37,300 nt of DNA, from IMG/VR virus record IMGVR_UViG_3300008267_008449, positions 1 to 37,300 of that record; one strand, 5' to 3'. Within the stretch, counting starts at the first letter, position 1, and every line of letters starts with the position of its first letter. This stretch comes from a virus. A program made the position numbers and the translations under genes. The notes beneath the pieces were generated by a model, which worked only from the letters and a program-made list of their open reading frames with translations, was not told where the DNA came from and made no database searches. Below are positions 6,052 to 37,300 of the stretch, in pieces.

Positions 6052-6060
6052 AATATCTAA

Positions 6061-7536: not shown

Positions 7537-7546
7537 TTAAGTGTTT

Positions 7547-7554
7547 TACTTATA
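7547..7554 (-). promoter_or_regulatory. Late-promoter-like TATAAGTA box
   Basis: TATAAGTA on the minus strand, ten bases before the start at 7536; one mismatch from the T4 late core. An overlapping plus-strand TATAAATA (7551-7558) would fire antisense into the hub gene and is probably incidental. Confidence 0.4.
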
Positions 7555-7558
7555 AATA

Positions 7559-9351: not shown

Positions 9352-9353
9352 AA

Positions 9354-11279: not shown

Positions 11280-11285
11280 TTTAAA

Positions 11286-11666: not shown

Positions 11667-11691
11667 AATGATAAATATTTAAACGTGTGAT

Positions 11692-13253: not shown

Positions 13254-13254
13254 A

Positions 13255-14316: not shown

Positions 14317-14320
14317 TGTG

Positions 14321-15937: not shown

Positions 15938-15983
15938 ATGATTGTTTTTTATTTTATAAGAATACTTCTTTTAATTTAAATGT

Positions 15984-17507: not shown

Positions 17508-18210
17508 ATAAAAAATTGTATGCTGTTAAATCAGTTATTTCGTTAATATTATGCGACTCAAATTCGTTAATATTTTTACCGACGTTCATATCTGCTCTCC
17601 CTCTGGTGCATTTAAGTATAAATTCTTCTTTTGTTTTACAAGCGTAATGATTAAGTTGGGCGATATCTACCATTCCTTTATCGTTAAAAGGTCCTTTAAA
17701 TTTTCTATGATTAGTATCGACGATTTCTCTGTCTGGAGAGTGAACATTCATAAAATTAGGTTCTTTTAAATTAAGAATTGTTTTAATATGTTGATTAGGG
17801 ATAGACTGACATTTTGTAAATCTTTTAACCACACCATATTCACCATTAATTTCAGATAAACCATTATCACCAAACATAACCCAATTAATCCCAACACCAT
17901 TGTGGTCTTTATAATCAAAAATAAATTCTTTAATGTTCTTATGTTTTTTTAACACCAAAAACTCATCAACATCAAAAAATGCCGCCCAATCATAATCTTT
18001 TTTATAATTTTTAATAAATTCATTATAACAGGGTACTTGTTTTGTTACTCCATCGTACTCTATTTTAATGACATTTGGCTCATCAATAGAACATCTCCAA
18101 TTGTTTTGGTAAATAAAAATATCATCAAACCCCAATTTTTTATTATAGTCAACCCATTCTTGGATGTAATTATCTTCATTTTTTGCAATACAAACTAACG
18201 CAACTCTCAT
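17479..18210 (-). CDS. GT92/Glyco_tranf_2_4-like glycosyltransferase
   Basis: A 243-aa protein starting MRVALVCIAKNEDNYIQEWV, the hallmark opening of the DUF23/GT92 and Glyco_tranf_2_4 groups. The metal-binding DxD lies in WAAFFDVDEFLVL (~94-106). Near the end is LNHYACKTKEEFILKCTRGRAD, which matches the conserved H-Y-x-x-K-S-x-E-E-F region of these enzymes. It is one base from the methyltransferase gene upstream and overlaps the two-domain transferase downstream. Donor and acceptor are unknown. Confidence 0.82.
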   Translation of the reverse strand: MRVALVCIAKNEDNYIQEWVDYNKKLGFDDIFIYQNNWRCSIDEPNVIKIEYDGVTKQVPCYNEFIKNYKKDYDWAAFFDVDEFLVLKKHKNIKEFIFDYKDHNGVGINWVMFGDNGLSEINGEYGVVKRFTKCQSIPNQHIKTILNLKEPNFMNVHSPDREIVDTNHRKFKGPFNDKGMVDIAQLNHYACKTKEEFILKCTRGRADMNVGKNINEFESHNINEITDLTAYNFLYGNDNILNT

Positions 18211-18211
18211 A

Positions 18212-18793
18212 TTATTTTAATTTAAACCAAGACCCGTCACCAAATGTTTTATCCGGAGTCCCTAATGATTCATTTATCGCCACTTTAACTCCGGCTATAT
18301 GTGGATGAAACACAATAAATTCATCTGTATTATAATCATGACCAGAAATAACTTTTTTAGTTAATGGGTTCCAATGTTTAATATCGTTCATAACACACTC
18401 ATATTTATGACAAGCATCAATATAAACCATATCGCATTCGATTGAAAAATCTGTTGAATACCCTTTTAATTTTGTAATGTTATTAACAGATGATAATCTT
18501 AAATCAAATTGTTCTTCAACATCAATATAATCAGCGTGACTAGCGGAATCGGAATCATCAAAACCTCCTTCCCACGAGTCAATACATATAATTTTTCCAT
18601 TCGGAAATTCTTGTGAAAAAATTAAACTACTTTCTCCCATGTATGAACCAAGCTCAACAATTGTAGGAGAATCTCCTAAAGTTTCTCTTAATTCTTGACA
18701 AAACAATCTTAATTCGTGTTCTGATTCATAAGGTCTCATGACCACTTTTAAATTTGTTGAGTTATATCCCTGTACTTCCAAATCCATTCTCAC
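18212..18793 (-). CDS. Class I SAM-dependent methyltransferase
   Basis: A 193-aa Rossmann-fold methyltransferase of the Methyltransf_24 type. Motif I is IVELGSYMGESS (45-56), followed by the acidic residue after strand 2 in IICIDSWEGG (D72). The strand-4 region CDMVYIDACHKYECVMNDI and the following VISGHDY are typical of this group, which often works with glycosyltransferases in sugar or polysaccharide methylation. The start at 18793 overlaps the dUTPase gene by 32 bases; MDLEVQ at 18787 is an alternative. Surrounded by glycosyltransferases, it probably caps or modifies the same glycan. Confidence 0.82.
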   Translation of the reverse strand: MRMDLEVQGYNSTNLKVVMRPYESEHELRLFCQELRETLGDSPTIVELGSYMGESSLIFSQEFPNGKIICIDSWEGGFDDSDSASHADYIDVEEQFDLRLSSVNNITKLKGYSTDFSIECDMVYIDACHKYECVMNDIKHWNPLTKKVISGHDYNTDEFIVFHPHIAGVKVAINESLGTPDKTFGDGSWFKLK

Positions 18794-19358
18794 CCCTATC
18801 TTTTTCGTTTATTTTGTTAACCTCAATTAAGTCAACCCAACCCCCATTTACAACAGGACATAAAACAGCTTGTCCTATTTTCATACCTTTAAATATTGTA
18901 AATTCATGAGGGTTAGTATTAAAAATTATTCCTTTTATTTCTCCTGTATATGAGGAATCTATTGTTCCGGGAGAATTTAATATCATAAGACCCTGATTAA
19001 TAGCTAAACCACTTTTGGTTCTTACTTGAATTTCGTACCCATCTTTAATATTAAAAGACAATCCAGTTGGGACTAATACTCTCCCAAATGGGGGAATGAT
19101 AATATCATCAATAGAATGTAAATCAAATCCTGAATCACCTTCGTAATTATATTTGGGGGTTATTGCATCAGGATGTAATTTATGAAATTCTAAAGGTAGT
19201 TTAGTTTTTTGATTTAACATTTTATCCTCTAACTCTTTAATATCAATACCTAATTCATTCATCATTTCGTTCATATCCAAATCTTCGAAATCACCATCCA
19301 ATCTTTGTCTTAATTCTTTCGCCTTTTCTTCTAAAAAATTTAAATTTTCGTAATCCAT
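18762..19358 (-). CDS. dut: dUTPase with N-terminal extension
   Basis: A 198-aa trimeric-type dUTP diphosphatase, converting dUTP to dUMP and keeping uracil out of phage DNA. All five motifs are present: SGFDLH (76-81), RTKSGLA (113-119), NSPGTIDSSYTGE (128-140), KGMKIGQAV (157-165) and DRGENGFGSTG (187-197). Motif 2 has Lys where Ser is usual. The first ~52 residues, before LPLEFHKL, are an acidic helical extension not found in minimal enzymes of ~145 aa. The start and the preceding stop overlap as TAATG. Confidence 0.95.
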   Translation of the reverse strand: MDYENLNFLEEKAKELRQRLDGDFEDLDMNEMMNELGIDIKELEDKMLNQKTKLPLEFHKLHPDAITPKYNYEGDSGFDLHSIDDIIIPPFGRVLVPTGLSFNIKDGYEIQVRTKSGLAINQGLMILNSPGTIDSSYTGEIKGIIFNTNPHEFTIFKGMKIGQAVLCPVVNGGWVDLIEVNKINEKDRGENGFGSTGI

Positions 19359-20059
19359 TATTCTAATTCTTTTAATTTTTTTATTACATCAATTAATACT
19401 AACACATCTCTTTCACAATATGCGGTTATTTCTGGCAACATATTTTTATTCCAATATGCGTCATGAACTTTATCTCCGGTGACATCACCTTCTTTTGGTG
19501 ATGGGACATCCATACAAGAACACATTAAGTCCAATGAACCTATTGCAGTATAAGCCCCATATTGCCAAATTTCTTTGGTATCAATAGCTTTAATTTCCCA
19601 CGGCTTGGTATCATACGATGGTAATAATGTTGGTGGCATTAATCCATTAATAATCATTCTTTTTGCTAACATCGGAATATCAAAATTCTTAAGGTTGTGT
19701 CCACATAGATGGAAATCCAATTTACCACAACGATTAAGTAATGTTTGACATTCTTTTAATAAAACTTTTTCATCGTCACCTGAAAATGATTGTTTTTTAA
19801 TATCACCATTATCCATAACAAATGCGACACTAACACAAACAATTTTTGCAAACTCCGGAACTAAAGCCGCTCTCGTTTCAAAAACTTTATCTGCGGAAAA
19901 TCCGGCATCTTCAGGAAATCGTTTTTGAAACCAATCAAAATATTTCTCAAATTGTTTTGCAACATTTGGATTACTTATTTTACATTCTGTATAGTTTTTA
20001 CAACCACCAACAGTTTCTATATCAAGAAACAATATTTTGGTTAAAGGTATTTTTATCAT
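19358..20059 (-). CDS. 3'-5' exonuclease, PolB-like DnaQ superfamily
   Basis: A 233-aa protein related to the proofreading domain of family B polymerases (DNA_pol_B_exo2 type). Exo I is FLDIETVGG (D13, E15), Exo II is CGHNLKNFDIPML (D127), and Exo III is AYCERDVLV (Y214, D218), so all four catalytic acids are present. No polymerase domain follows. It begins four bases after the GT-B gene and is joined to dUTPase by a TAATG overlap. Likely role: DNA repair, recombination or proofreading in phage replication. Confidence 0.88.
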   Translation of the reverse strand: MIKIPLTKILFLDIETVGGCKNYTECKISNPNVAKQFEKYFDWFQKRFPEDAGFSADKVFETRAALVPEFAKIVCVSVAFVMDNGDIKKQSFSGDDEKVLLKECQTLLNRCGKLDFHLCGHNLKNFDIPMLAKRMIINGLMPPTLLPSYDTKPWEIKAIDTKEIWQYGAYTAIGSLDLMCSCMDVPSPKEGDVTGDKVHDAYWNKNMLPEITAYCERDVLVLIDVIKKLKELE

Positions 20060-20063
20060 TTTA

Positions 20064-21281
20064 TTATTTAATTAAAGATTTGTAAAATTCTGCTCTTGTT
20101 ATTGTAACATTATTTAAATCGTATTTGTCTTTAACGGTTTCAAATAATCTCTCACCCAATTCATTAATCATTTCAGGGTTTTGAACCAACTTTTTAATTG
20201 ATTTAGACCAATCACTATGATTTCTACTTTCAGGGACTAAAATTGCGTTACCATCTGTGAAATTACCATTTTTTAAACAATGTTTTAAATCAATTGTATA
20301 TGGACCAATCTCCGAAGCGATTAACGCTTTTTTATAAAATCCGGCCTCAATAACTTTTAATTGAGATTTCATTCTATTAAAAATATGATTTTTAATCGGT
20401 GCTAAAGATATATCAAATTTTGAATAATTCATAGCGTAAGTTGTAACAGGTTTTGTCCAAACTCTAACATATGGTAAGTCATCTGTTGATAAAAACTCCC
20501 TTTCTTTGAATTCTAATAAATGTTTTTTATAGTTCTCATCAACGGTCTTATACTTGTTGGTAAAAATTTCTTCATATTTAGTCCAAACGGTTTCGTGAGG
20601 TAATATATCTCTTTTTCTCTCTTCACCTGTTTGTGGATTCATTTCTGTTACGGTACCTCTAATATCAAAACCACAGATAACGTATTGTAATTTATGATTG
20701 ATATCCTGATTTTTTTGAACAAACTCACCCAATAAATTTAAATCCTCAATGTGAGAACTACCTCCAAGCCATCCAACTCTAATTTTTTCTGATGGTGGTG
20801 TTGGCTTATTAAATTGTCCTTCTTTTGGGTTTATAGCGTTTGGTAAAACTAATACATTTTTATTAAGTTTACGAATTTCATTTGCAAATAAATCAGTTGT
20901 GGTAGTTACATAACTTGCTTCTTTTAAATTTGCAACAATTTTTTCATGAATTTTATGTTTTACGATAATACTATGGATTGGATGGTCTATTGTTGGTAAC
21001 CAATAATCGTCAATATCAATAATAACAATAATCCCTAATTCCTTTAATCCTTTAATTATTTGCGAAGCCACTTCGTAGTTATTACCAATAGTTCTATGTG
21101 CGTGAACTATTTGATATTTTTTCCAATAATTAATATCGTCTATCTTTGGAGTGTAATCAATATCCACATGAAAATCATCAGGATATTTGTTTTGTAAGAA
21201 TACATGGGGGTCTACCGAACGAAATTTTCCAACACCTGACGTATCCGATGGTAGAACTAACACATTAATTTTTTCTTTCAT
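20064..21281 (-). CDS. GT-B glycosyltransferase (GT4-like)
   Basis: A 405-aa protein. The N-terminal lobe starts INVLVLPSDTSGVGKFRSV and includes YQIVHAHRTIGNNYEVA and an acidic IIDIDDYW. The C-terminal lobe starts near residue 167 (KIRVGWLGGSSHIEDLNLL), a typical GT4-type second Rossmann start. The donor-site region is FDISLAPIKNHIFNRMKSQLKVIEAGFYKKALIAS. A C-terminal helix returns to the first lobe. It is the first gene of the long minus-strand string after a 110-base gap, so its upstream region (TATAATTTAA near 21293) may hold a promoter. Confidence 0.82.
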   Translation of the reverse strand: MKEKINVLVLPSDTSGVGKFRSVDPHVFLQNKYPDDFHVDIDYTPKIDDINYWKKYQIVHAHRTIGNNYEVASQIIKGLKELGIIVIIDIDDYWLPTIDHPIHSIIVKHKIHEKIVANLKEASYVTTTTDLFANEIRKLNKNVLVLPNAINPKEGQFNKPTPPSEKIRVGWLGGSSHIEDLNLLGEFVQKNQDINHKLQYVICGFDIRGTVTEMNPQTGEERKRDILPHETVWTKYEEIFTNKYKTVDENYKKHLLEFKEREFLSTDDLPYVRVWTKPVTTYAMNYSKFDISLAPIKNHIFNRMKSQLKVIEAGFYKKALIASEIGPYTIDLKHCLKNGNFTDGNAILVPESRNHSDWSKSIKKLVQNPEMINELGERLFETVKDKYDLNNVTITRAEFYKSLIK

Positions 21282-21336
21282 ATTATTAAATTATAAATGA
21301 AAATATAATGATAGTTAACAAGAATATCAACAATAT

Positions 21337-21371
21337 AAAATAAAAAACCCCCAACTTGGTAGATGAGGGTT
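21337..21371 (-). terminator. Rho-independent terminator of the 24016-21392 operon
   Basis: On the minus strand, AACCCTCA (complement of 21364-21371) pairs with TGGGGGTT (complement of 21346-21353) through one G-T wobble, with a 10-base loop and then TTTTTTATTTT. It lies 20 bases after the stop at 21392 and before the glycosyltransferase gene, so it separates the two minus-strand gene blocks. The rest of the 21282-21391 gap is AT-rich with no gene. Confidence 0.75.
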
Positions 21372-21391
21372 AATTTTGAGAGTAAATAAAG

Positions 21392-22003
21392 TTAAGATAG
21401 TTTTTTTATCTTTGTGACCTTACCTTCAAATATATGTTTTCCAACTTTAAAAGAAAAGACTTCATTTGATTTTTGTGTTGATTCGGCAAGTATACCATTT
21501 TCTAACAACACTTCTTCCACAACTTCTTTTAACATTTCTTTTAATTGTTTGTTGTTAAAACTTGGTTGAGGTGATTGTTCTTTAACTACTTGGTTTGTTT
21601 GTTGAGGACCTTTTAAATTCATTAATTTTGAGGCTTTCTCAACTAATTCATCCGACAATACTGAACCACCTCCCATAGAACTTGGTTGAGTGATTGGGTG
21701 TTCTATCATTAATCGTTTTATTTCGTCAGGTAATTTAGATGACATAACTCTATCTTGAGTTATTGGTTGTTGTGTCATTGGTGTTTTAGGTATTGACGAT
21801 AAGTAAGGTTCATTTACATTTGAATTTTCTTGTAAAAATTCTTGAGGTAACGAATACTTCGCTTGTGGTGCGTCATATGATGCCACTTCAGGTGAATTAT
21901 ATGAATTCATAGAAGGTAATCCACCTCTTGGTGTTTGATTGTGGATATCTATCATTTTTTTAGATATCATTAATTTTTCCATTAAACTATTTTCGTTTGT
22001 CAT
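21392..22003 (-). CDS. Hypothetical hydrophilic virion/assembly protein
   Basis: A 203-aa protein. The first ~130 residues are low-complexity, rich in Pro, Ser, Gln and Asn, and probably disordered. A helix NKQLKEMLKEVVEEVLLENG (~152-171) precedes a compact C-terminal unit SNEVFSFKVGKHIFEGKVTKI, likely a small beta fold. No family is recognised. The helix resembles the C-terminal helix of the protein at 4338-4850. It is the last gene before a terminator in an operon of small, probably structural genes. Confidence 0.65.
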   Translation of the reverse strand: MTNENSLMEKLMISKKMIDIHNQTPRGGLPSMNSYNSPEVASYDAPQAKYSLPQEFLQENSNVNEPYLSSIPKTPMTQQPITQDRVMSSKLPDEIKRLMIEHPITQPSSMGGGSVLSDELVEKASKLMNLKGPQQTNQVVKEQSPQPSFNNKQLKEMLKEVVEEVLLENGILAESTQKSNEVFSFKVGKHIFEGKVTKIKKLS

Positions 22004-22009
22004 AATGTT

Positions 22010-22426
22010 TTAATATTGTGTTGGTTCTGTTTGAGTTGGTTGCTCATTAAAAACCGCATTTATGATAACTCTTGTCATACTTTTATCTCCGGCTGTATTA
22101 TAACCAGGTTTTGGTGTGTTAAACTTTTCTCCGGATGGTTTAAAAGAGAGAATTTTATCTGCTCTAAAAAGTCTCCATCCTGGTAGAGGTTGTTCTCCTT
22201 TATAACCGGTGTGAGACGCTCCTTGAGTATCCCAAGCTCGTAGAACAGGGTTATCAGCTTTACTGTATCCAAAACATACAGGTTCTATCTCCCTTAATCC
22301 ACGACCACCAGGTTCATCACCATCGTAGTAAATTATTATCTTGTCTTTATTTTTTATAGCACTGACTATTGAGTCAACTGACGCTACTTCTAAAATAAGG
22401 GACTTAAATGTATTGTAAAGTTTCAT
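22010..22426 (-). CDS. WYL-like domain protein with possible prohead-protease tag
   Basis: A 138-aa protein. Residues ~25-102 resemble a stand-alone WYL/Sm-like beta-barrel: a strand IIIYYDGD, then GLREIEPVCFGYSKADNPVLRAW, and PGWRLFRADKILSFKP, which follows the I-x-Y, R-x-(I/V)-E-P and R-x-F-x-x-D-(R/K)-I order of WYL domains. The N-terminus MKLYNTFKSLILEVAS carries I-L-E followed by V, a fit to the T4 prohead-protease site (L/I)xE. There is no DNA-binding domain. Its gene order (TAATG overlap with the gene before) puts it among virion genes, so a packaged role is possible. Confidence 0.6.
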   Translation of the reverse strand: MKLYNTFKSLILEVASVDSIVSAIKNKDKIIIYYDGDEPGGRGLREIEPVCFGYSKADNPVLRAWDTQGASHTGYKGEQPLPGWRLFRADKILSFKPSGEKFNTPKPGYNTAGDKSMTRVIINAVFNEQPTQTEPTQY

Positions 22427-22719
22427 TAAGCGCTTGGTGTGGTGTAAGGTGCGTTTGGTTTAAAGGTATTCACTACTATTTCAGATTTTCTTTCTAAAAT
22501 GTCTTGGATTGCTCCAGCACCTTGATTATAAACATCTAAATCACCACCAGTTCCTTTACCTTTAGTGTCACCATCCGCCAATGCGTCAGGATTAACCGAA
22601 GAATATTGGTTGGTTGTTTTATAATCATTTTTTGGGAATAATATTGCTCTTTGAGATGTCGCAATTGACGACAACTTATTTTCTGGTTGAGCCAAGTCTA
22701 TTGGGTCTAAATTTGCCAT
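22426..22719 (-). CDS. Small hypothetical protein, probably structural
   Basis: A 97-aa soluble protein, Asn/Asp/Thr-rich, with ATSQRAILFPKNDYKTTNQY in the middle and a Gly/Asp-rich turn (GDTKGKGTGGDLD). No membrane segment or known motif. It is three bases after the 156-aa gene and overlaps the WYL-like gene by one base. Function unknown; context suggests a virion or assembly component. Confidence 0.65.
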   Translation of the reverse strand: MANLDPIDLAQPENKLSSIATSQRAILFPKNDYKTTNQYSSVNPDALADGDTKGKGTGGDLDVYNQGAGAIQDILERKSEIVVNTFKPNAPYTTPSA

Positions 22720-22722
22720 AAC

Positions 22723-23193
22723 TTAAATTATTTTTTTTATTAAATCGTTTATTCTTTGTAAATTCTCAACAATTGCTGAATCATATCTATTCACGGCTGA
22801 TTTATGTGATTGAGTTGGTCTATTCATCTTTGTCATATCATTTTTTTCGTGAGGTTGGATGAATTGATTTGGTAATACTTCAGACTTATTCTGTTTAGTA
22901 TTCTCAACATTATCTCTCATAGAATTTAATGTGTCATTGACCCAATTTTTCACATAATGACCACCATTTAAAATATGTGTGGTATCATTTTCGTGACCAT
23001 CAAAATTATCAAACCAATTTTTCATTCGTTTTAATTGTTGGTATGTAATTTCTTTCTTATCTCTTAAATCTTTATTTCTTTTAAATCCTTCGGTTGTTTC
23101 GTCAACTTCACCAACGGCTTGATTGCATTGATGTAAATACTCAACAACATCTTGGGGAACGACAAAAGTTTTTCCGTATAAATCTTTATTCAT
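22723..23193 (-). CDS. Hypothetical phage protein
   Basis: A 156-aa protein. The N-terminus LYGKTFVVPQDVVEYLHQC is followed by a basic helix (TEGFKRNKDLRDKKEITYQQL), then RMKNWFDNFDGHENDTTHIL and GGHYVKNWVNDTLNSMRDNV. The C-terminus is a helix, ENLQRINDLIKKII. No catalytic motif is seen. It overlaps the gene upstream by eight bases. I do not recognise a family. Confidence 0.65.
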   Translation of the reverse strand: MNKDLYGKTFVVPQDVVEYLHQCNQAVGEVDETTEGFKRNKDLRDKKEITYQQLKRMKNWFDNFDGHENDTTHILNGGHYVKNWVNDTLNSMRDNVENTKQNKSEVLPNQFIQPHEKNDMTKMNRPTQSHKSAVNRYDSAIVENLQRINDLIKKII

Positions 23194-24016
23194 TTGATTT
23201 TAGTGATTTAATTAACATATTAATACTAATACCTTCTTTTTCAGCAATTTTTTTAATAGATTGGATATTTTTCATTAATATTTTACTGATACCATTATTT
23301 TTAATAACACCTGAATCATCTTTTGATTTTTTGGTTAAAATATCCTCAACCATTTTAGCCATTTGTTGTTTCTGTTGTTCTTCTATTGTATCTTTTTCTG
23401 ATAATCTTTGTTTTAACTTACCATCGTGTTTTTTTTGTTTTGGAAGTTTTCCAAATTCTTGAGCTCTTTCTTCCGGATTCTCAACACCCATTTTAGCAAG
23501 AGTTTTAACCGTGTTATCGTAATCCATATTTTCAGTTTCAACATATCCGAATGCTTCCGAATAATCAACCTCATTTATCATCTCATCACCCTTTTCTTCT
23601 CCCTCACCATAATAAACTCTATAACCTCTAGTAACAGGGTCATTAGGTGTTGTTGTCATAGGAACAGTTTGGTCCATCGTTTTTTCTGGAGATAGTTTCA
23701 TATTAATATATGGTATTCTTGATGTTAACATTGTACCATCTTCATCAACAAATTCTTCTATTTCCGTTTTGGATTTAACATTTTTTAAAGTTTTAGTTAA
23801 ATTGTCTTTTGACACTTTTTTCTTTGAGTTTAAAACTTTAGACATAACATCTTTAATTTTTTTTGTATCTTTTTTATCAAAGTCAATCTTGTCATCTTTT
23901 TTTCTTGATTCGGTTAAAGTATCCGCAACAGAATAATATAGGGATATTTTATCTCCTCTATCTTTTAAAAAGAAGTAATAATTATTACTGAAGTACTCTG
24001 TATTAAAATTTATCAT
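23186..24016 (-). CDS. Hypothetical charged protein, first gene of the assembly operon
   Basis: A 276-aa protein, very rich in Lys, Glu and Asp. The N-terminus (INFNTEYFSNNYYFFLKDRG) is aromatic, the middle has NDPVTRGYRVYYGEGEEKG, and the last ~100 residues are helical with a likely coiled coil (SEKDTIEEQQKQQMAKMVED). There is no signal peptide or membrane helix. No family is recognised; the charge and helices would suit a scaffold or internal head protein, which is only a suggestion. A GATAAATA box 33 bases upstream forms half of a divergent promoter with the fibre operon. Confidence 0.65.
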   Translation of the reverse strand: MINFNTEYFSNNYYFFLKDRGDKISLYYSVADTLTESRKKDDKIDFDKKDTKKIKDVMSKVLNSKKKVSKDNLTKTLKNVKSKTEIEEFVDEDGTMLTSRIPYINMKLSPEKTMDQTVPMTTTPNDPVTRGYRVYYGEGEEKGDEMINEVDYSEAFGYVETENMDYDNTVKTLAKMGVENPEERAQEFGKLPKQKKHDGKLKQRLSEKDTIEEQQKQQMAKMVEDILTKKSKDDSGVIKNNGISKILMKNIQSIKKIAEKEGISINMLIKSLKSNE

Positions 24017-28259: not shown

Positions 28260-31200
28260 ATGTCTAACTTAAATTATAAAAATCCATTATCACCAATAAT
28301 AGCATTAGGGAGTCAATCTTCATTAAGGACTAGTACATTTGGAACAACATTTAGTGTTTTAAATACGGGTGGTTTTATGGAGGTTTACACCTTAAATGAT
28401 TTAATTTATACAATACCTTTTGGTGATACAGGGGATATTGAGTTTTCAGGTAACACTATTCCTATTCAATTTTATAAAGGAATAAATTCTTCATTTTCAT
28501 TTGACACAATAACATTAAACTCCGACAATATCTCATCAGGTAGAAGAAGATTGGGTATGTTGGTTTATGTTTATGAAACAGACCAAGTATACCAATTCTC
28601 TATAGATGATTATAATACACTATGGTCTGACGCTTTAGGTGCTTCAGGACCTGGTGGTGATACCGTAGTTATTTCTGATTTTGGAACAACGGTTAAAAAT
28701 AACTCAACAGAAGGTCAATTATTTATTGATACTTGGACGGGGTCAACAATTGAGGATGTTGATGGTGTCACACGAATTAATGCTAGATGGAGAAAATTTG
28801 CAACATCAATACAAGATATATATGTTACGGGAGGAACTTATTTTTCCGCAACATCTACTTTAGATTTATATAGAAATGATGGTGCGACAGTATCTATAGT
28901 CGCAACCGGAATCGATGGTACATCGGGTACTAGTGGGATAAGTGGTTCTTCAGGAACATCAGGTTCAAGCGGAACAAGTGGTTCTTCAGGAACATCAGGT
29001 TCAAGCGGAACAAGTGGTTCTTCAGGTACTAGTGGAGAATCAGGAACTAGCGGTGAAAGCGGTTCTTCAGGTACTAGTGGAGAAAGTGGTTCATCAGGTA
29101 CTAGCGGAGAATCAGGAACATCAGGAACTAGCGGTGAAAGCGGTTCTTCAGGTACTAGCGGAGAATCAGGAACATCAGGAACTAGCGGTGAAAGCGGTTC
29201 TTCAGGTACTAGTGGAGAATCAGGAACATCAGGTAGAGATGGGTCATCAGGAACTAGTTTTGGGATTATAGGTCAATCAACAACATCAATAAATTTATCG
29301 GGTTTAACGGGTGTTATATCATTAACGACATATTCAGGATTATCTTACACTATAGGTCAAACTTTAATTATTTCAAATTCTGCAACCGATTTTTTTATTG
29401 GTAGAGTTCAAACTTACGATATTAATACCGGTGATTTAACAGTTTTAGTTACTAATGTAACAGGAACGGGAGCTTTTAACTCGTGGACAACAAATATTAA
29501 TGGAGCTTCGGGTGCTGCAGGGTCTTCAGGTTCTAGTGGGACAAGCGGTAGTTCAGGAACGTCAGGTGAATCAGGAACAAGTGGTTCTTCGGGAACATCA
29601 GGTGAATCAGGAACAAGTGGTTCTTCGGGAACATCAGGTGAGTCAGGTTCTAGTGGTACATCCGCTTTATGGAACTTTTTAGGTGTTTATCAAGTACAGA
29701 TACATAACATAGGTGATGTTGTAACTTTTGATGGTCAAACTTGGTATTGTATTCAATATGCACCATCCGGTGCAGGACCTTTTGGAGGTTACATTGATGT
29801 ATATTGGACTTTAATTGCCGCATCGGGAACAAATGGTTCTAGTGGAACAAGCGGCGAATCAGGTTCATCAGGAACATCCGGTGCAAACGGAATTGCCGGA
29901 ACATCAGGAGTATCAGGTTCTAGTGGGACAAGTGGTGTTGGAGAGGCAGGTTCATCAGGAACATCCGGTGCAAACGGAATTGCCGGAACATCAGGAGTAT
30001 CAGGTTCTAGTGGGACAAGTTCTGGAGGTGGTGGTGATAGTATAATCATTACCGGAACAGGTATTAACTCAACTATCAGATGTGGTGTTGGTAACTCCGC
30101 ATCAGGAAATTATTCCGCAGCTTTGGCTGGTAGTGGAAATACAGCTTCATGTGTTTTTTCAGTGGTTGTTGGAGGTAAATGTAATATCTCTTCAGGGGTA
30201 ACATCATTTATTGGTGGAGGACAGTTAAATATTATACATCCTTCAACAAATGCTTACGAAGTTTATTCAAAAATAGGTGACGTAATTGGTGGGGGATGGT
30301 GTAACGTTATTTATACAAACACTTATAATAGTTACGGTCCTACGGGGGGTAATACAATCGGTGGAGGTTGTAAAAATAGGGCAACACCTTATGGAGGTTT
30401 TACCACAATCGGTGGTGGTATTGATAATCGTGTTTGTGGAAGTTTTACCACAATCGGTGGTGGTATTAATAATTACTCGTATGGCTCATTCTCAACAATT
30501 GGTGGTGGTCAAAATAATAAAGCATATGGTTGTAAATCAACAATAGGTGGTGGATTTTTAAATTGTGCTTTCGGTTATGGTTCAATTGTTGGTGGTGGGC
30601 AAGAAAACATTGCATGTGGTGACCATTCATTTGTTGGTGGTGGTAAAACTGCCTACAATGGTTTATATTTCATTCAAAATAATGCCGGAGGTTATGTTTC
30701 AGTTGTTGTTGGAGGTGCAGGTAATATATCGTCAGGGGCAACATCATTCATTGGTGGTGGTAGATTAAACACCACTTTAGTTAAAGAGTCTTCAATTGTA
30801 GGTGGATTTTGTAATAGAATTTTTGGTTACGGGCAGTATGTTGATTCAAAGTGTGGTGATTTTATTGGAGGTGGTTTTGATAATATTATAAATACCCAAC
30901 ATAATAATCCATATAGTGCAAGATATGGTAGCGTTATAAATGGAGGGACATCTAATTCAATTACAGGTAGAGTTTATGGTGGCGTGATTGGAGGAGGTTT
31001 TTATAATTGTTTAACCGGTAATGGAAAAAGTTCTTCCTCACCTTTAATTGGAGGTGGTCAATGTAATAAAATTTTTAATAGTTCTAGTTCAACTATCGGT
31101 GGTGGAGGTCAAAACGATATTTGCAATTCATATAATTCTTTTATAGGTGGTGGTTTACGTAATAGAATTTCAGGTGTGGACGAAATCTATAGTGGGCTTA

Positions 31201-33548
31201 TCTGTAATTTTTCATCAATTGGTGGTGGTTTTTGTAATATAGTATCAGGAGCAACATCATTTATTGGTGGAGGTTGTTGTAATACAATTGGTGGTTCGTG
31301 TTCATCAATACTTGGTGGTCAATGTAATACAATATCTTCCGGTTTTACTAATACAAATATAATTGGTAGTAACATAACAGCAAACAGAAGTTGCACGACA
31401 TTCGTTAATGATTTATCCGTTTGTAGTTTCACTGGTTCTAGTGGATGTAATGTTGGTATATCAACAAACGGTTTATTAATCCCGGTTGCTGCCGGTGGTG
31501 GAAGTAGTAGTATAATTATTACCGGAACAGGTGTTAACACAACCATTAGATGTGGTGTTAGTAACGCTGCCTCATCGTGTTTTTCAGCGGCATTAGCCGG
31601 TAGTGGAAATACTGCATCAGCATGTTTTTCAACAGTTGTTGGTGGTCAAAATAATAGTGTATCGGGAGCAACATCATTTATTGGTGGTGGTTGTAATAAC
31701 ACTGTTTCATCATCTTGTTCTGTGATTGGAGGTGGAGCGAATAATGAATCTCGTGGTAATTTGTCAGTAATTAGTGGGGGCAGATATAATTATACTTTAG
31801 GTCGGTCTTCAACAATTGGTGGTGGTTATTGTAATCGTAATTGGGGTAATTGTTCAACCATCGGTGGTGGTAGACAAAATACCACTATAAATAGTGTGTC
31901 AACAGTAGGTGGAGGAGGTTTTAATCAAGCCGGAGAGCTGTATTCAACGGTTGGTGGAGGATATGGTAACATAGCTAGTGGATGTATGTCATTCGTTGGT
32001 GGTGGTGGTGACGCGAGTGACTTTTCTCTCTATATATATCGTTCAAACAGTGCAACAAAACATGGGTCCGTTGTTGTTGGTGGGTTAGGTAACTTATCAG
32101 CAGGAATTAGTTCATTTATTGGTGGCGGATTTTTTAATTCAGTTAGTAGTAATTGTTCATCAATACTTGGTGGTCAATGTAATACAATATCTTCAGGTTT
32201 TACAAACTCTAACATCATAGGTAGTAACATAACAGCAAATAGAGCTTGCACAACATTCGTTAATGATTTATCTGTATGTAGTTTTAATGGTTCTTCAGGA
32301 TGTTCAATCTGTGTTGGAGCAAATGGTTTATTAGTGACAACATCAGGTGGTACTGGTAATAGTGGTTCTTCAGGAACATCCGGTGCAAACGGAATTGCGG
32401 GAACATCAGGAGTTTCTGGTTCTAGCGGAACAAGTCCTATTGGAGGGGGTGGAATTATCATCACCGGAACAGGATTAAATTCAACCATTAGATGTGATGT
32501 TAATAATACCGCAACATCGTGTTTTTCAGCGGCATTAGCCGGTAGTGGAAATACTGCGTCAGCATGTTTTTCAACAATAGTTGGAGGTCAAAATAACATT
32601 GTATCAGGAACAACATCATTTATTGGTGGGGGTTGTTGTAATACCGGAATCGCCTTCCAATCAACAATTGTTGGTGGTAATAGAAACACTATTTGTAATT
32701 TCTCAACTTATCTTAATAATTACGAGGTTATACCTAACTTCATTGGTGGTGGTAGTTGTAATATTATTTTTTCAAACACTTCATACGATACTTCTGTTGG
32801 TGGTAGTTCTATTGTGGGAGGGAAATGTAATAAAATATGTTCACCATATGGTGGTAGTTCTATATCCGGTGGATTTAGGAATGTTGTTTGTGGTGATTGT
32901 TCATTTATTGGTGCTGGATGGGATAATGAAACAATAGGGTATTCATCATTCGTTGGTGGGGGGAGATGTAATATTACTTCAGGTAATTACACCACAATCG
33001 GTGGTGGGATTAATAATAAAAGTAATTGTACAGGTTCAGTAGTTGGTGGTGGACAAAATAATAATTCTTGTGCCAGTTATTCATCAATACTTGGTGGTTG
33101 TTTTAATACAATATCTTCCGGTTTCACAAATTCTAATATAATCGGTAGTAATATAACAGCAAATAGAAGTTGCACAACATTCGTTAATGACTTATCTGTT
33201 TGTAGTTTTACAGGTTCATCAGGATGTAATGTTGGTATCTCAACAAATGGTTTATTAATTCCGGTCTCACCTGGCGGAGGTTTAACACCAATTAAACTTA
33301 CAGGTCAAACATTAACCGCGGCATCGTGGACACTAGTGGGTGGTTATTATACTTATTCATTCAGTAATGTAAATATTACCGTAAATTGTGATGTATCTGT
33401 TACACCACAAAACTCAAGTTATCTTACAGCATATAATGCACAAGTATTACCTTATGTAGGAGTTGCTTCAGGAGTTGCAACATTTTACTCTCAATTTCCA
33501 CCTGAAGCGAATATGACGGTAGACATAATAATAACACAAACAACATAA
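28260..33548 (+). CDS. Giant tail fibre/adhesin: Gly-X-Y stalks and YadA-head-like beta-roll repeats
   Basis: A 1762-aa protein. Residues ~1-215 form the N-terminal, probably attachment, domain. Four Gly-X-Y-like tracts built from GTS, GSS and GES triplets follow (28917-29258, 29502-29663, 29826-30020, 32364-32435), separated by small domains. From residue ~594 onward there are about 45 copies of an IGGGxxNxxxGxxS repeat, as in the left-handed beta-roll head of YadA-type trimeric adhesins. These are arranged in three modules, each opening with IIITGTG...TIRC and closing with SILGGQCNTISSGFTN...VCSFxGSSGC. The final ~85 residues are a separate domain. Cys often sits in the repeat turn (GGGxCN). 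A trimeric receptor-binding fibre is the likely role. No signal peptide, as expected for a virion protein. Confidence 0.85.
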   Translation: MSNLNYKNPLSPIIALGSQSSLRTSTFGTTFSVLNTGGFMEVYTLNDLIYTIPFGDTGDIEFSGNTIPIQFYKGINSSFSFDTITLNSDNISSGRRRLGMLVYVYETDQVYQFSIDDYNTLWSDALGASGPGGDTVVISDFGTTVKNNSTEGQLFIDTWTGSTIEDVDGVTRINARWRKFATSIQDIYVTGGTYFSATSTLDLYRNDGATVSIVATGIDGTSGTSGISGSSGTSGSSGTSGSSGTSGSSGTSGSSGTSGESGTSGESGSSGTSGESGSSGTSGESGTSGTSGESGSSGTSGESGTSGTSGESGSSGTSGESGTSGRDGSSGTSFGIIGQSTTSINLSGLTGVISLTTYSGLSYTIGQTLIISNSATDFFIGRVQTYDINTGDLTVLVTNVTGTGAFNSWTTNINGASGAAGSSGSSGTSGSSGTSGESGTSGSSGTSGESGTSGSSGTSGESGSSGTSALWNFLGVYQVQIHNIGDVVTFDGQTWYCIQYAPSGAGPFGGYIDVYWTLIAASGTNGSSGTSGESGSSGTSGANGIAGTSGVSGSSGTSGVGEAGSSGTSGANGIAGTSGVSGSSGTSSGGGGDSIIITGTGINSTIRCGVGNSASGNYSAALAGSGNTASCVFSVVVGGKCNISSGVTSFIGGGQLNIIHPSTNAYEVYSKIGDVIGGGWCNVIYTNTYNSYGPTGGNTIGGGCKNRATPYGGFTTIGGGIDNRVCGSFTTIGGGINNYSYGSFSTIGGGQNNKAYGCKSTIGGGFLNCAFGYGSIVGGGQENIACGDHSFVGGGKTAYNGLYFIQNNAGGYVSVVVGGAGNISSGATSFIGGGRLNTTLVKESSIVGGFCNRIFGYGQYVDSKCGDFIGGGFDNIINTQHNNPYSARYGSVINGGTSNSITGRVYGGVIGGGFYNCLTGNGKSSSSPLIGGGQCNKIFNSSSSTIGGGGQNDICNSYNSFIGGGLRNRISGVDEIYSGLICNFSSIGGGFCNIVSGATSFIGGGCCNTIGGSCSSILGGQCNTISSGFTNTNIIGSNITANRSCTTFVNDLSVCSFTGSSGCNVGISTNGLLIPVAAGGGSSSIIITGTGVNTTIRCGVSNAASSCFSAALAGSGNTASACFSTVVGGQNNSVSGATSFIGGGCNNTVSSSCSVIGGGANNESRGNLSVISGGRYNYTLGRSSTIGGGYCNRNWGNCSTIGGGRQNTTINSVSTVGGGGFNQAGELYSTVGGGYGNIASGCMSFVGGGGDASDFSLYIYRSNSATKHGSVVVGGLGNLSAGISSFIGGGFFNSVSSNCSSILGGQCNTISSGFTNSNIIGSNITANRACTTFVNDLSVCSFNGSSGCSICVGANGLLVTTSGGTGNSGSSGTSGANGIAGTSGVSGSSGTSPIGGGGIIITGTGLNSTIRCDVNNTATSCFSAALAGSGNTASACFSTIVGGQNNIVSGTTSFIGGGCCNTGIAFQSTIVGGNRNTICNFSTYLNNYEVIPNFIGGGSCNIIFSNTSYDTSVGGSSIVGGKCNKICSPYGGSSISGGFRNVVCGDCSFIGAGWDNETIGYSSFVGGGRCNITSGNYTTIGGGINNKSNCTGSVVGGGQNNNSCASYSSILGGCFNTISSGFTNSNIIGSNITANRSCTTFVNDLSVCSFTGSSGCNVGISTNGLLIPVSPGGGLTPIKLTGQTLTAASWTLVGGYYTYSFSNVNITVNCDVSVTPQNSSYLTAYNAQVLPYVGVASGVATFYSQFPPEANMTVDIIITQTT
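28917..29258 (+). repeat. Gly-X-Y (GTS/GSS/GES) tandem repeat tract 1
   Basis: Nine-base and longer units encode Gly-Thr-Ser, Gly-Ser-Ser and Gly-Glu-Ser triplets. A 36-base unit is repeated exactly in tandem (28944-28979 and 28980-29015). It is collagen-like in its Gly every third residue but lacks proline. Confidence 0.85.
29502..30020 (+). repeat. Gly-X-Y tracts 2 and 3, with exact 72-base direct repeat
   Basis: Two further Gly-X-Y tracts (29502-29663 and 29826-30020) flank a small globular domain of ~54 residues with WNFLGVYQVQIHNIGDVVTF and TWYCIQYAPSGAGPF, similar to a carbohydrate-binding or chitin-binding type 3-like strand pattern. Tract 3 contains an exact 72-base repeat, 29862-29933 and 29949-30020, encoding GSSGTSGANGIAGTSGVSGS. 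A diverged third copy is at 32364-32435. Confidence 0.8.
30039..33281 (+). repeat. Three large diverged modules of the beta-roll fibre
   Basis: Module A (30039-31500), module B (31509-32340) and module C (32454-33281) share start and end blocks at DNA level, but A has about 22 beta-roll repeats while B and C have about 12 and 11. The closing blocks begin at 31302, 32157 and 33081. This shows duplication of a whole adhesin module inside one gene, with later gain or loss of internal repeats. Confidence 0.8.
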
Positions 33549-33552: not shown

Positions 33553-35748
33553 ATGGCTTTTAATGTACCAATAAATTCAATAGCACCAATTGACACACCT
33601 TCTGATTGGGTAAGACCACCTGATTGGATAACAATTACTGACACCGCAAATGAGGTTCAGTTTTTAGTTGCCGATACAGGAGCAAAAGCGTTTGCAATTC
33701 AAACCACATTTACAAGAACTTCAGGAAATATTTATATTGATTGGGGTGATGGTACTGTAGATACAATATCAACCACTACTTCTACAACAACCGAACATGT
33801 TTATTCCACAGGAGGTACTCCTTGTTCAAGAGGTTACAACACATTTAAAATAAGAATATATGGTGATGCCACCTGTGTCATTACTAACGCTAAACATTTA
33901 TCTAATTTTACGGTTACGGGTGGTGCTGTTTACTATAATGTTGGATTGTTAGAGGTTTATTTTGGAAATAATACTTGTAATACAACGGCATTAACCGGTA
34001 CTTATTTTTCTTCAGCTGGTGGTACAACATCAGTATCTACTTTTGAATTATTGGAATATGTAAAGCTACCTTCTTCGGTTACTTGGACTACTCAAATGGC
34101 ATCTATGTTTCAGAATTGCAATAATTTGTATCAAGTTGTAATGCCAACATCCGCTGGCTCATTAACTGATTTATCAAATATGTGTAATGGTTGTGGTAAT
34201 TTACGAGATATCGTACTACCATCAAATGCGACTACAATAACTACCTTATTATCAGCATTTAATAGTTGTACAAATCTTAGGACAGTATCGTTTCCAACAA
34301 CATTAAATAGTTGTCTAACTTTAGGTAGTGCATTTGCGTCTTGTTTATCTTTAAAAACTGTAACATTACCTAGTATTAATTTAGTAACAAATATAAATAA
34401 CACATTTTTCAGTTGTGGTTCATTACAATGGGTTAAATTTACATCATTACCCTCACCGGTAAGTAGTGGAGTGATTATTGATACTATCAATTGTTTCGCA
34501 TCTAGTTATAGTTTACAAAACGTATATTTCCCACCCACTTGTTCTAGTAATGCAGTATATAACGCACAAACCTCATTTCAGGGTTGTAATAATTTAAAAA
34601 ACATAATTTTCCCAACAAATTTTAATGCATCAACATTGTCAACCGCCTTTAGTGGGTGTTATTCATTAACAAATGTTACTTTTCAATCGGCGATGCCGAA
34701 TTTAACTATTTTAACCAGTTGTTTTGTCAATTGTTATAGGTTAACATCTTTTACTTTACCAACAACAGTTGGTGCAACAATAACGATGGGATTAATGTTT
34801 GATAGTTGTATTTCTCTTGAATCAATAACAATACCTTCCGGATGGACAATAACAAGTTTAACTAGTACTTTTACAAACTGTGTCAATTTAAAAACAATAG
34901 TTCTTCCAAATAACACTCAAAACAGTATTACTATAATGACATCAATGTGTCTTGGATGTACTAAATTAGAATCTGTAACGATGCCAACTAGTATGACCGC
35001 TGCCACTACAATATCAGGAACATTTCAGAATTGTCCCTCACTAACTGGTGCGACTTTTCCATCAACAATGAATTTGGTAACAACCGCTTCTAACTGTTTT
35101 AATAGTTGTGAGTCTTTAACATCAGTTACAATGCCAACTAGTATGAGTAGTTGTACAAATTTTAGTAACGCCTTTAATGGTTGTTGGTCATTAACTTCAA
35201 TAACAATGCCAGCAACAGTTTCCACATCTTTAACAACCTTTTCACAGGCATTTATACAATGCGTTAATTTAACAACATTAACATTACCAACAACTCAAAC
35301 ATCGTTATTAACCACATTAACATCGGTTTTTGCACAATGTTCTAATTTAACAACGATAAATAATCTAAATAGGTTAGGTAGTTTAACAGCAACACCATTA
35401 GTAGGAGCCACACTTATTACTCAAGCCAACAAATTACCATCATTAAGTTTTAGTTGTCCATTTTCATCGTTGGCGGTTAATGGTAATAGTGCAACAAACT
35501 TTAGTAGATTAAGTGGTTTAAGACTTGTAAATACATCCGCAGGTCAATGGACGGGAACATCACCACAAATAAATGTATCTTTCACTAGTTTATCTACATC
35601 GGCGTTAAATACATTATTTGCTGATATGGCGGCACAAGGAAATGTAACATCTAAAGCAATTAATATAACTTCAGCAACCGGAGCAGCTGGATTAACATCC
35701 GCGGATAGATTAGTGATAACATCTAAAGGTTGGACAATAACAGGATAA
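33553..35748 (+). CDS. PKD-like plus BspA-type leucine-rich-repeat fibre protein
   Basis: A 731-aa protein starting four bases after the giant fibre. A short N-terminus (MAFNVPINSIAPIDTPSDWV) precedes a PKD-like unit, GNIYIDWGDGTVDTI ending in EHVYSTGG (~54-95). Residues ~150-590 carry about 18 repeats of roughly 23 residues with the pattern LxxVxxPxS...LxxxFxxCxx, that is, BspA/LRR_5-type leucine-rich repeats with Cys at the conserved turn. The C-terminal ~140 residues form another domain ending LTSADRLVITSKGWTITG. BspA LRRs in bacteria and protists bind host or extracellular proteins. Here it is probably a receptor-binding or adhesin component. Confidence 0.82.
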   Translation: MAFNVPINSIAPIDTPSDWVRPPDWITITDTANEVQFLVADTGAKAFAIQTTFTRTSGNIYIDWGDGTVDTISTTTSTTTEHVYSTGGTPCSRGYNTFKIRIYGDATCVITNAKHLSNFTVTGGAVYYNVGLLEVYFGNNTCNTTALTGTYFSSAGGTTSVSTFELLEYVKLPSSVTWTTQMASMFQNCNNLYQVVMPTSAGSLTDLSNMCNGCGNLRDIVLPSNATTITTLLSAFNSCTNLRTVSFPTTLNSCLTLGSAFASCLSLKTVTLPSINLVTNINNTFFSCGSLQWVKFTSLPSPVSSGVIIDTINCFASSYSLQNVYFPPTCSSNAVYNAQTSFQGCNNLKNIIFPTNFNASTLSTAFSGCYSLTNVTFQSAMPNLTILTSCFVNCYRLTSFTLPTTVGATITMGLMFDSCISLESITIPSGWTITSLTSTFTNCVNLKTIVLPNNTQNSITIMTSMCLGCTKLESVTMPTSMTAATTISGTFQNCPSLTGATFPSTMNLVTTASNCFNSCESLTSVTMPTSMSSCTNFSNAFNGCWSLTSITMPATVSTSLTTFSQAFIQCVNLTTLTLPTTQTSLLTTLTSVFAQCSNLTTINNLNRLGSLTATPLVGATLITQANKLPSLSFSCPFSSLAVNGNSATNFSRLSGLRLVNTSAGQWTGTSPQINVSFTSLSTSALNTLFADMAAQGNVTSKAINITSATGAAGLTSADRLVITSKGWTITG

Positions 35749-35752: not shown

Positions 35753-35923
35753 ATGGAAGATACATCAGGATTTTATAGACAAAACGAAGAATTAAATTGG
35801 GAATACGCACCCAATTTTGTTTACGGACCTAATTACACATTAATTAAAGAATTAAAAGATACTTATAGTTATCCGGTTGAAGGGTGGTCTTGGTATGATG
35901 AACAACCTTACACAATAGAATAG
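35753..35923 (+). CDS. 56-aa aromatic-rich small protein
   Basis: A short gene starting four bases after the LRR gene and translating as MEDTSGFYRQNEELNWEYAP..., with YGPNYTLIKELKDTYSYP and ending GWSWYDEQPYTIE. It is acidic and unusually rich in Tyr and Trp, without membrane or signal sequence. The tight spacing, clean stop and biased composition support a real gene. The likely role is a small fibre-associated or chaperone-like protein for the fibre before it; this is inferred only from gene order. Confidence 0.65.
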   Translation: MEDTSGFYRQNEELNWEYAPNFVYGPNYTLIKELKDTYSYPVEGWSWYDEQPYTIE

Positions 35924-35997: not shown

Positions 35998-36819
35998 ATG
36001 GATAAGACAATCTTTTTTAACTCCTCTCTACCTAGAGCAGGTTCAACCCTATTTCAAAATTTAATCGGACAAAATCCCCAATTTTACGTAACCCCAACAT
36101 CAGGATTAATTGAGTTGGTATCGGGAGCAAAAAATCATTATAATGGTTCTCAAGAAATTAGAGCTCAAGACCCCAAGTTAATGGAAAAAGCGTTCATTAA
36201 TTTTTGTAGAAAAGGGATTCAAGGATTCTTTGAGGAATTAACAGATAAACCCTATGTGTTAGATAAGAGTCGAGGGTGGGGTATTAATTACAATCTACTG
36301 AGTTTATTTAAAGAAGACCCAAAGATTGTTTGTATGGTTAGAGACATTAGATGTGTCTATTCCTCAATGGAAAAGAACTTTAGAAAAAACCCCCACAAAG
36401 AAAGTCATATACAAAACCCAAACGAATTGGTTGGGACAACTGTAAACAAACGAGTAGATATTTGGGCTAGTGGACCGCCGGTGGGTATCACATTAGACCG
36501 ACTACAAGATATCTTCCAACAAAACCTTCACACTAAAATTTTATTTATTAGATATGAGGATTTAATGGATAACCCTGAAAGAGAATTAAAACGATTTTAT
36601 GACTATGTTGGGCAACCAATGTATCAAGGACACAATTTTGAATATATTGAACAGGTGACAAACGAAAATGATGTTGTTCACGGTATATTTGGAGACCATG
36701 TGTTAAGAAAAGAATTTAGAAAATTACCGGATGACTATTTGGATATATTGGGTTATGAATTATCAACCAATATTAAGAATCATTATAAATGGTTTTATGA
36801 TTATTTTGGGTATGTCTAA
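35998..36819 (+). CDS. PAPS-dependent sulfotransferase
   Basis: A 273-aa protein of the P-loop-like sulfotransferase fold. The 5'-phosphosulfate loop is SSLPRAGSTLFQNLI (9-23, with R13, G15, S16, T17). The 3'-phosphate-binding region is VCMVRDIRCVYSSMEK (111-126, R115 and S122/S123). KILFIRYEDLMDNPERELKRF near residue 181 is the third typical block (R-Y-E-D-L). It would move sulfate from PAPS to a hydroxyl, commonly on a sugar. The next gene encodes an APS kinase that makes PAPS and overlaps by eight bases, strong context for this call. The acceptor is unknown. Confidence 0.88.
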   Translation: MDKTIFFNSSLPRAGSTLFQNLIGQNPQFYVTPTSGLIELVSGAKNHYNGSQEIRAQDPKLMEKAFINFCRKGIQGFFEELTDKPYVLDKSRGWGINYNLLSLFKEDPKIVCMVRDIRCVYSSMEKNFRKNPHKESHIQNPNELVGTTVNKRVDIWASGPPVGITLDRLQDIFQQNLHTKILFIRYEDLMDNPERELKRFYDYVGQPMYQGHNFEYIEQVTNENDVVHGIFGDHVLRKEFRKLPDDYLDILGYELSTNIKNHYKWFYDYFGYV

Positions 36820-37258
36820 CATATATTGGATAACAGGTCAGCCGGGAGCTGGTAAAACAACAATAGCAAAAGAACTACGTTCATCAATTGTTGATTCTAA
36901 AAGAGAATTATGTTTTCACATTGATGGTGATGATATTAGAGATTTATTTGACAATAAAGATTATTCCGAAGAAGGTAGAAGAAAAAATATACAACTAGCT
37001 CAACAAATGTCTCAATATCTCAATTCTCAAAGTGTTCATGTTGTTGTTTCATTAGTGTCACCATATAAAGACCAAAGAGAAGAATTTAAGAAAAAGATGG
37101 GTAGAAAAATCACAGAGATTTATGTTCACACATCAGAAATTAGAGGTAGGGAGAATTTGTTTGTTGATGACTATGAATCACCTACGGAAAACTTTATTGA
37201 TATTGATACCACGAACATTGGGGTTAATGAATGTATAAAAAAAATATTAAACAATTAA
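36812..37258 (+). CDS. cysC: Short adenylylsulfate (APS) kinase
   Basis: A 148-aa protein; I start it at MSNIYWITG (36812) because the P-loop follows directly, rather than at an upstream in-frame ATG inside the sulfotransferase. Walker A is GQPGAGKTT (9-17). The APS-kinase pattern IDGDDIRDLF (~37-46), EEGRRKNIQLAQ and VVVSLVSPYKDQREEF follow. The usual lid segment with DPKGLYKKA and FTGIDDPYE is missing or replaced by RGRENLFVDDYESP, so it is ~30 residues shorter than typical CysC. It phosphorylates APS to PAPS with ATP, and would feed the overlapping sulfotransferase. Confidence 0.85.
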   Translation: MSNIYWITGQPGAGKTTIAKELRSSIVDSKRELCFHIDGDDIRDLFDNKDYSEEGRRKNIQLAQQMSQYLNSQSVHVVVSLVSPYKDQREEFKKKMGRKITEIYVHTSEIRGRENLFVDDYESPTENFIDIDTTNIGVNECIKKILNN

Positions 37259-37268: not shown

Positions 37269-37300
37269 ATGAATATAATATTTTCAATAGAAGGTGGATT
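37269..37300 (+). CDS. Start of a further gene, cut by the window edge
   Basis: An ATG ten bases after the APS kinase stop opens a frame reading MNIIFSIEGG to the edge. The spacing fits co-transcription with the sulfation genes. Too little is present to identify it. Confidence 0.5.
   Translation, partial: MNIIFSIEGG

Follow-up and report, generated by a model that had tools for sequence, protein, structure and literature searches.

A viral sulfotransferase gene overlapping a lidless APS-kinase-family gene, a probable sulfation module

The window, the whole 37,300-nucleotide stretch of DNA that was analysed, from a virus record of IMG/VR, ends in a plus-strand run of genes in which a sulfotransferase (ST) follows two long fibre-like proteins and overlaps a kinase of the APS-kinase family (APS, adenosine 5'-phosphosulfate). 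The two genes, their motifs and their neighbours are as follows.

28260-33548, plus strand: 1762-residue collagen-like, IGGG-repeat fibre-like protein (Pfam Collagen, 101.5 bits), a possible acceptor
33553-35748, plus strand: 731-residue BspA-type leucine-rich-repeat protein, a probable fibre (Pfam LRR_5, 149 bits) and a possible acceptor
35753-35923, plus strand: 56-residue tyrosine-rich small protein (8 Tyr) upstream of the ST, listed for context
35998-36819, plus strand: PAPS-dependent ST, 273 residues, phrog_27463 family by Pfam and PHROG matches
36025-36051, plus strand: 5'-PSB motif SLPRAGSTL of the ST (residues 10-18, S10-L18), aligned to TPST PRSGTTL
36334-36378, plus strand: 3'-PB motif MVRDIRCVYSSMEKN of the ST (residues 113-127), aligned to TPST MVRDGRASVHSM
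36812-36819, plus strand: overlap of the ST and kinase genes, ATGTCTAA, 8 nt, read directly
36812-37258, plus strand: lidless APS-kinase-family protein, 148 residues, assigned by Pfam, PDB and clade, putatively PAPS-forming
36836-36859, plus strand: Walker A motif (P-loop) GQPGAGKT of the kinase; G9, Q10, P11, G14 and K15 invariant in 26 relatives
36923-36940, plus strand: DGDDIR motif of the kinase (canonical DGDNxR); D38, G39, D40 and R43 invariant
37049-37066, plus strand: SLVSPY motif of the kinase (canonical S-F/L-I/V-SP), aligned to APS kinases; P84 invariant, V82 nearly so
37130-37183, plus strand: short segment TSEIRGRENLFVDDYESP of the kinase in place of the canonical lid PKGLYKKARAGEIKGFTG, from alignment with canonical kinases
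37270-37300, plus strand: start of the next gene, GT9-like (MNIIFSIEGG...), cut by the window end

The 1762-residue protein is rich in collagen-like (GTSGSSG)n runs and in IGGG..N repeats like those of YadA. The 56-residue protein has no Pfam or PHROG match. The GT9-like gene is present at full length, about 291 residues, in the relatives L002, L003 and L029; its product scores 18.7 bits against Pfam Glyco_transf_9, under the cut-off of 22, and a sequence search found no solved relatives. A scan for promoters and terminators around the ST/kinase pair gave sites not in excess of those in shuffled sequence, and no tRNAs were found in the 37.3-kb window. The minus strand carries a long block (5316-24016) in which most of the large proteins tested have no PHROG match, the exceptions being PhoH (15173-15937) and a glycosyltransferase (20064-21281).

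The gene at 35998-36819 is confirmed as encoding a PAPS-dependent ST, with sulfate transfer from PAPS as its predicted activity. The protein matches Pfam Sulfotransfer_3 (55.3 bits, cut-off 27) and Sulfotransfer_1 (43.2 bits, cut-off 22), and phrog_27463 with an E value of 3.8e-37. Residues P12, R13, G15, S16, T17, R115 and S123 are invariant among 26 relatives of 48-76% identity. The AF2 model has a pLDDT of 90.6, and the top matches in a fold search with this model were sulfotransferases throughout, with Z up to 19.6. The best PDB match is TPST1 (Z 19.6 over 250 residues, 14% identity), followed by a next group at 15.8 and the carbohydrate STs at about 14; a profile comparison, with TPST1 at 1.3e-9, agreed with the fold ranking. 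The initial annotation, made from the letters and the reading frames, had described a sulfotransferase with both PAPS-binding motifs and had proposed structure prediction and a fold search as a check; motifs and fold both bear it out. In TPST the glutamate of the GEETR segment is the catalytic residue. This glutamate is missing from the ST, where the aligned residues are an invariant TPTSG. Thus the ST appears not to use the TPST catalytic base.

The kinase scores 75.6 bits against Pfam APS_kinase (PF01583; cut-off 21.1), and its nearest PDB chains are the archaeal APS kinases 7yq0 and 8a8h. In addition to the motifs listed above, its alignment with APS kinases contains an N..Y(S)...R..N motif. 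The lid of canonical APS kinases, which closes over APS, is a segment of about 19 residues (PKGLYKKARAGEIKGFTG) that is missing in the window kinase, where EIRGREN-(x)-DYExP is found instead, and also in its whole clade. The score against the NCBI equivalog model TIGR00455, 76.2 bits, falls under the cut-off of 138.7. In a quick FastTree phylogeny with a midpoint root, its grouping read without support values, the lidless kinases of viruses fall together with those of Marinimicrobia, marine group III archaea, Crocinitomicaceae and others in a single group, separate from the canonical enzymes. A plain canonical APS kinase was rejected on the missing lid and the failed TIGR00455 cut-off. The initial name of APS kinase thus survives at the level of the family, through the Pfam score and the active-site motifs, and not at that of the canonical enzyme; the intact P-loop and the eight-base overlap, noted at the same time, are present as described. 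The ORF caller gave a 175-residue version starting at 36731. This start is not supported, because the relatives begin at the position of 36812.

Compared with the near-identical loci L002, L003, L004 and L029, the ST has a dN/dS of about 0.06 and the kinase one of 0.05-0.17, so that both lie at about 0.05-0.2. Such low values indicate that both are maintained proteins under purifying selection.

The pairing recurs across viruses. The loci taken from IMG/VR numbered 80 for the ST and 39 for the kinase; removal of near-duplicates and a requirement for at least 3 kb of downstream sequence left 50 ST loci for counting. In 37 of these 50 non-redundant loci the ST is followed, on its own strand and at no more than 4 kb, by a kinase, and in 23 the two genes touch or are at most 60 nt apart. 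The control was a set of 33 large related contigs picked solely by the window's PhoH gene, among which the ST family occurs in none and any APS kinase in two (Fisher p = 3e-10 for kinase linkage, ST loci against control contigs). In both exceptions, L318 and L319, the kinase is preceded at 3 nt by a different ST, the L318 protein matching Sulfotransfer_2 at 48.4 bits (cut-off 22). A Sulfotransfer_2 protein likewise lies 0.5 kb upstream of the kinase in L103. Together these three arrangements show that the kinase travels with more than one ST family. The pairing is more widespread than the sequence alone could show, and the search for the same pair in related phages, suggested at the outset, gave a positive answer. 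The recurring pair suggests that these viruses use sulfate to modify themselves or their hosts chemically. Nine of 14 further ST contigs, mostly picked for having no adjacent kinase and some of them fragments, have no APS kinase at all, so that some such viruses would use host PAPS. Three ST-like proteins with PRCGST or PRTGST (L098 8033-8605, L101 8707-9285, L117 8686-9285) have no Pfam sulfotransferase match and were not counted.

Most relatives have a longer cassette. On the 3' side of the kinase are found a nucleotidyltransferase of about 130 residues (73 loci), a DUF2061 membrane protein (77 loci) and a GT9-like gene, the last near the cassette in 89 loci, either upstream or downstream. 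Examples of the viral nucleotidyltransferase are at L135 963-1421 and L011 11256-11666. It carries the motifs GR(W/F/Y)QPxHxGH, GR(G/D)VGY and ISATKIRE, and its HxGH core is present, with H32, H35 and GR(W/F/Y)Q invariant. The AF2 model (pLDDT 89) has an NMNAT/PPAT-like fold with Z about 10, and the protein is closest to archaeal NMNAT/NadM by both sequence and fold. Against Pfam ATP-sulfurylase (PF01747) it scores 20.5 bits, under the cut-off of 24.3, and no solved ATP sulfurylase was among the matches listed in the structural comparisons. Identification as an ATP sulfurylase by homology was rejected, as sequence and PDB searches point to NMNAT/PPAT, and an ATP-sulfurylase reading rests on context instead. 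In the window and its close relatives, the nucleotidyltransferase and DUF2061 are not beside the kinase, one such contig having DUF2061 elsewhere; the closest contigs, G001-G004, which are possibly fragments, yielded no nucleotidyltransferase or ATP-sulfurylase-like gene.

The partner gene made exchange of the kinase visible. The 385-kb viral contig of L072 has the ST and no lidless kinase; the APS kinase there is canonical (220 bits) and shares its cluster with a nucleotidyltransferase, a DUF2061 gene and another ST. This nucleotidyltransferase is 79% identical to the one that stands beside a lidless kinase in L108, to which those beside the lidless kinases of L011, L099 and L117 are 46-52% identical. 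The nucleotidyltransferases of cellular L162, beside a canonical kinase, and viral L117, beside a lidless one, are 78% identical. Near-identical partners next to different kinase types indicate that the kinase was swapped at least two times while the partner was kept. Such swaps are what interchangeable function of the lidless and canonical kinases predicts, the shared activity presumably being conversion of APS to PAPS. Since the window kinase has no lid and falls under the TIGR00455 cut-off, the case that it still makes PAPS is argued from context, along three lines: linkage to the ST, pairing with an unrelated ST, and the swap with canonical kinases.

A single scan of genomes of bacteria and archaea, with the alignment of the nucleotidyltransferase as query, yielded 80 loci. 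An APS-kinase-family protein, usually adjacent or fused, is in the same locus in 59 of the 68 closer members (L147-L214) and in none of the 12 loci of remoter NMNAT-like hits (L215-L226). Among 94 neighbouring proteins the commonest Pfam family is Sulfotransfer_3 (7), and five match CysQ, the PAP phosphatase that clears the by-product PAP; glycan-synthesis genes are also found. Sat was above the cut-off in 2 of 32 such genomes and CysD in 2 of 32, which is suggestive only, because most of these assemblies are small or incomplete. Single-cell Pelagibacteraceae (L203-L206, L209, L213) have the APS kinase and the nucleotidyltransferase, and Sat and CysD are absent in all four of these genomes tested (L203, L204, L205 and L209). 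In Chitinophagaceae DUF2061 is fused to the kinase (L193: APS_kinase 171 bits, DUF2061 47.4 bits), and such fusions suggest a role for DUF2061 in sulfate activation or sulfation. Further fusions of DUF2061 with an APS-kinase-family protein occur in L197, L200, L192 and L186.

The ST family is rare in the Bacteroidota sample. In one member, L335 (3994-16000, minus strand), a GLUG-repeat protein longer than 2,400 residues, an ST, a 250-residue protein, CysD and a CysN-CysC fusion follow one another in a single run. Read from its genes, L335 would combine an ST and a complete canonical route to PAPS, next to a repetitive surface protein. The same 250-residue family, without a Pfam match in either locus, stands together with CysD and a CysN-like gene in L337 (2573-6022).

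The ST and the lidless kinase are read here as a virus-encoded sulfation module, with a probability of about 0.8. What was observed directly is the identity of the genes, the fold, the conservation of the motifs, the linkage and the exchange with the canonical APS kinase; the activities, the acceptor and the biological role are deduced from these. The kinase would phosphorylate the 3'-OH of APS to give PAPS, and the ST would then move sulfate from PAPS to an acceptor. The initial annotation had taken the two genes for a complete donor-making and donor-using pair. Conserved linkage and the deduced kinase swaps support the pairing; completeness did not hold, as the pathway needs APS and the closest contigs have no ATP-sulfurylase-like gene. 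As neither the window nor the close contigs contain an APS-making gene, APS would be made by the host or by the product of a gene beyond the contig. In most related viruses the HxGH nucleotidyltransferase beside the kinase probably makes APS as a stand-in ATP sulfurylase. Its pairing with the kinase, its neighbours and the genomes without Sat or CysD make it a candidate new ATP sulfurylase. It is an even bet that it represents an unrecognised ATP sulfurylase family which, with the lidless kinase, DUF2061 and interchangeable STs, forms a compact mobile cassette of viruses and cells, of which the window would hold the kinase-ST half. The partner is a more novel lead than the ST-kinase pair itself.

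The acceptor would most likely be a long repetitive surface protein such as a tail fibre, or its glycan, and sulfation may then alter adsorption. The L335 layout and the position of the window ST after the collagen-like and BspA-type proteins favour as the acceptor a fibre or a surface protein, or else a sugar on it that the GT9-like enzyme would have placed there. Both a protein and a glycan are possible, since the catalytic Glu position is not conserved and the GT9-like gene is a constant neighbour, and the two stand at about equal odds. Sulfation of a sugar laid down by the linked GT9-like enzyme, on fibres or on a host glycan, is a strong contender though short of an even chance. The GT9-like gene in 89 loci, other glycosyltransferases nearby and the glycan-synthesis genes among the cellular neighbours argue for it; however, the GT9 assignment is under the Pfam cut-off with no solved relative by sequence, and the ST fold is less like the carbohydrate STs than like TPST.

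Sulfation of protein tyrosine, as in Xanthomonas Rax, on a phage fibre, the 56-residue protein or a host surface protein, is a tentative alternative. It is consistent with the TPSTs as nearest solved structures in both fold and profile, and with the location of the ST beside long repetitive surface proteins in phages and cells. The replacement of the GEETR glutamate segment by TPTSG argues against it. Tyrosine enrichment in the proteins just upstream of the ST was rejected as a sign of a sulfotyrosine substrate, the content being 3.9% against a background of 4.5%. The 56-residue protein was rejected as a dedicated RaxX-like substrate; it is not conserved beside the ST, being confined to the closest relatives and absent in L004.

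The kinase itself could act on something other than APS. A Campylobacter APS-kinase-like enzyme phosphorylates cytidine diphosphoramidate, and with this precedent the lidless kinase might phosphorylate a different activated nucleotide, from which the neighbouring transferase would move a group other than sulfate. The missing lid and the TIGR00455 score leave room for such a substrate, as does a partner nucleotidyltransferase that resembles NMNAT/PPAT rather than ATP sulfurylase in sequence and fold. However, canonical APS kinases occupy the same place beside near-identical nucleotidyltransferases, the gene next to the kinase is a sulfotransferase with intact PAPS motifs, and the cellular neighbours include Sulfotransfer families and CysQ. 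A look through the recurring neighbour clusters showed no diphosphoramidate pathway genes. A non-sulfate role of this kind is unlikely.

Much less credible is that the kinase and nucleotidyltransferase form a NadR-like NAD salvage pair, a ribosylnicotinamide kinase with an NMN adenylyltransferase, to which the ST is incidental. NAD salvage genes are known from phages, and the similarity of the nucleotidyltransferase to archaeal NMNAT/NadM fits with this precedent. The kinase, however, matches APS kinases, with no ribosylnicotinamide kinase among the solved chains that it matched, and its ST partners come from more than one family. In addition the window's own clade has the ST and kinase without the nucleotidyltransferase, and the loci of the remoter NMNAT-like proteins (L215-L226) lack a kinase. 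Viruses are well known to carry sulfur auxiliary genes, cysC among them, but a role for the kinase in boosting host cysteine synthesis is the least probable of all and was rejected, as no PAPS-reductase/CysD-family gene (PF01507) is present in any of 15 contigs and the kinase is tightly linked to sulfotransferases.

The closest functional parallel to the proposed sulfation module is the Rax system of Xanthomonas, in which a bacterial tyrosine sulfotransferase, raxST, is fed by dedicated sulfate-activation genes, with raxP/raxQ providing ATP sulfurylase and APS kinase (PMC3897388; Shen et al. 2002 as cited therein). The Rax system is encoded on the chromosome and combines canonical enzymes with a secretion system, whereas the present pair is viral, has a lidless kinase, and has its ATP sulfurylase absent or replaced by an unrelated nucleotidyltransferase. 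Among solved enzymes, human TPST1 and TPST2 (PDB 5wrj, 3ap3) are the best fold matches and align with the ST at both PAPS-binding motifs, but identity is 14% and their catalytic GEETR is TPTSG in the phage family. The kinase shares the P-loop, DGD-R, F/Y-S-R-N and S-SP motifs with CysC APS kinases (PDB 7yq0, 8a8h, 2gks), from which it differs in the lid, the TIGR00455 score and its separate clade.

Homologous STs of 26-30% identity occur in Synechococcus phages S-SKS1, S-SRM01 and S-SCSM1 and in OM43-phage genomes; unlike the window ST, those inspected have no annotated APS kinase beside them. In the OM43 phage genomes the ST is listed as an auxiliary gene whose function "remains unclear" (PMC10580990), and other viral sulfotransferase auxiliary genes are on record (PMC12285232, PMC13079714). 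A search of the open-access literature, with most subscription papers beyond its reach, returned no paper joining phage sulfotransferases to an APS kinase and nothing on an alternative ATP sulfurylase. Phage STs, so far auxiliary genes of unclear function, are now linked to a kinase of their own that would form PAPS. Together with the candidate APS-forming enzyme that often accompanies them, they outline a testable pathway by which an infecting phage would sulfate virions or host surfaces. Should the nucleotidyltransferase prove to be an ATP sulfurylase, it would also provide a PAPS route for the many bacteria and archaea of the sea in which an APS kinase is present and a recognised ATP sulfurylase is not.

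A lidless kinase is also found in the Stenotrophomonas phages DLP_6 and Bhz60, as the phrog_10255 "kinase" (L119 5623-6354, L120 4587-5327), there fused to the same type of nucleotidyltransferase and, unlike in the window, with no annotated sulfotransferase near the fusion. A different joining is seen in L058 (8133-8480), where an ORF connects the kinase N-terminus, including the P-loop, to the nucleotidyltransferase C-terminus, apparently as the remnant of a deletion within the cassette. In L318 (1944-2285), L313 (1947-2285) and L028 (12705-13058), a HAD-like protein of about 113 residues (FDIDGTI..KYR) lies between the kinase and the nucleotidyltransferase and could be a PAP phosphatase.
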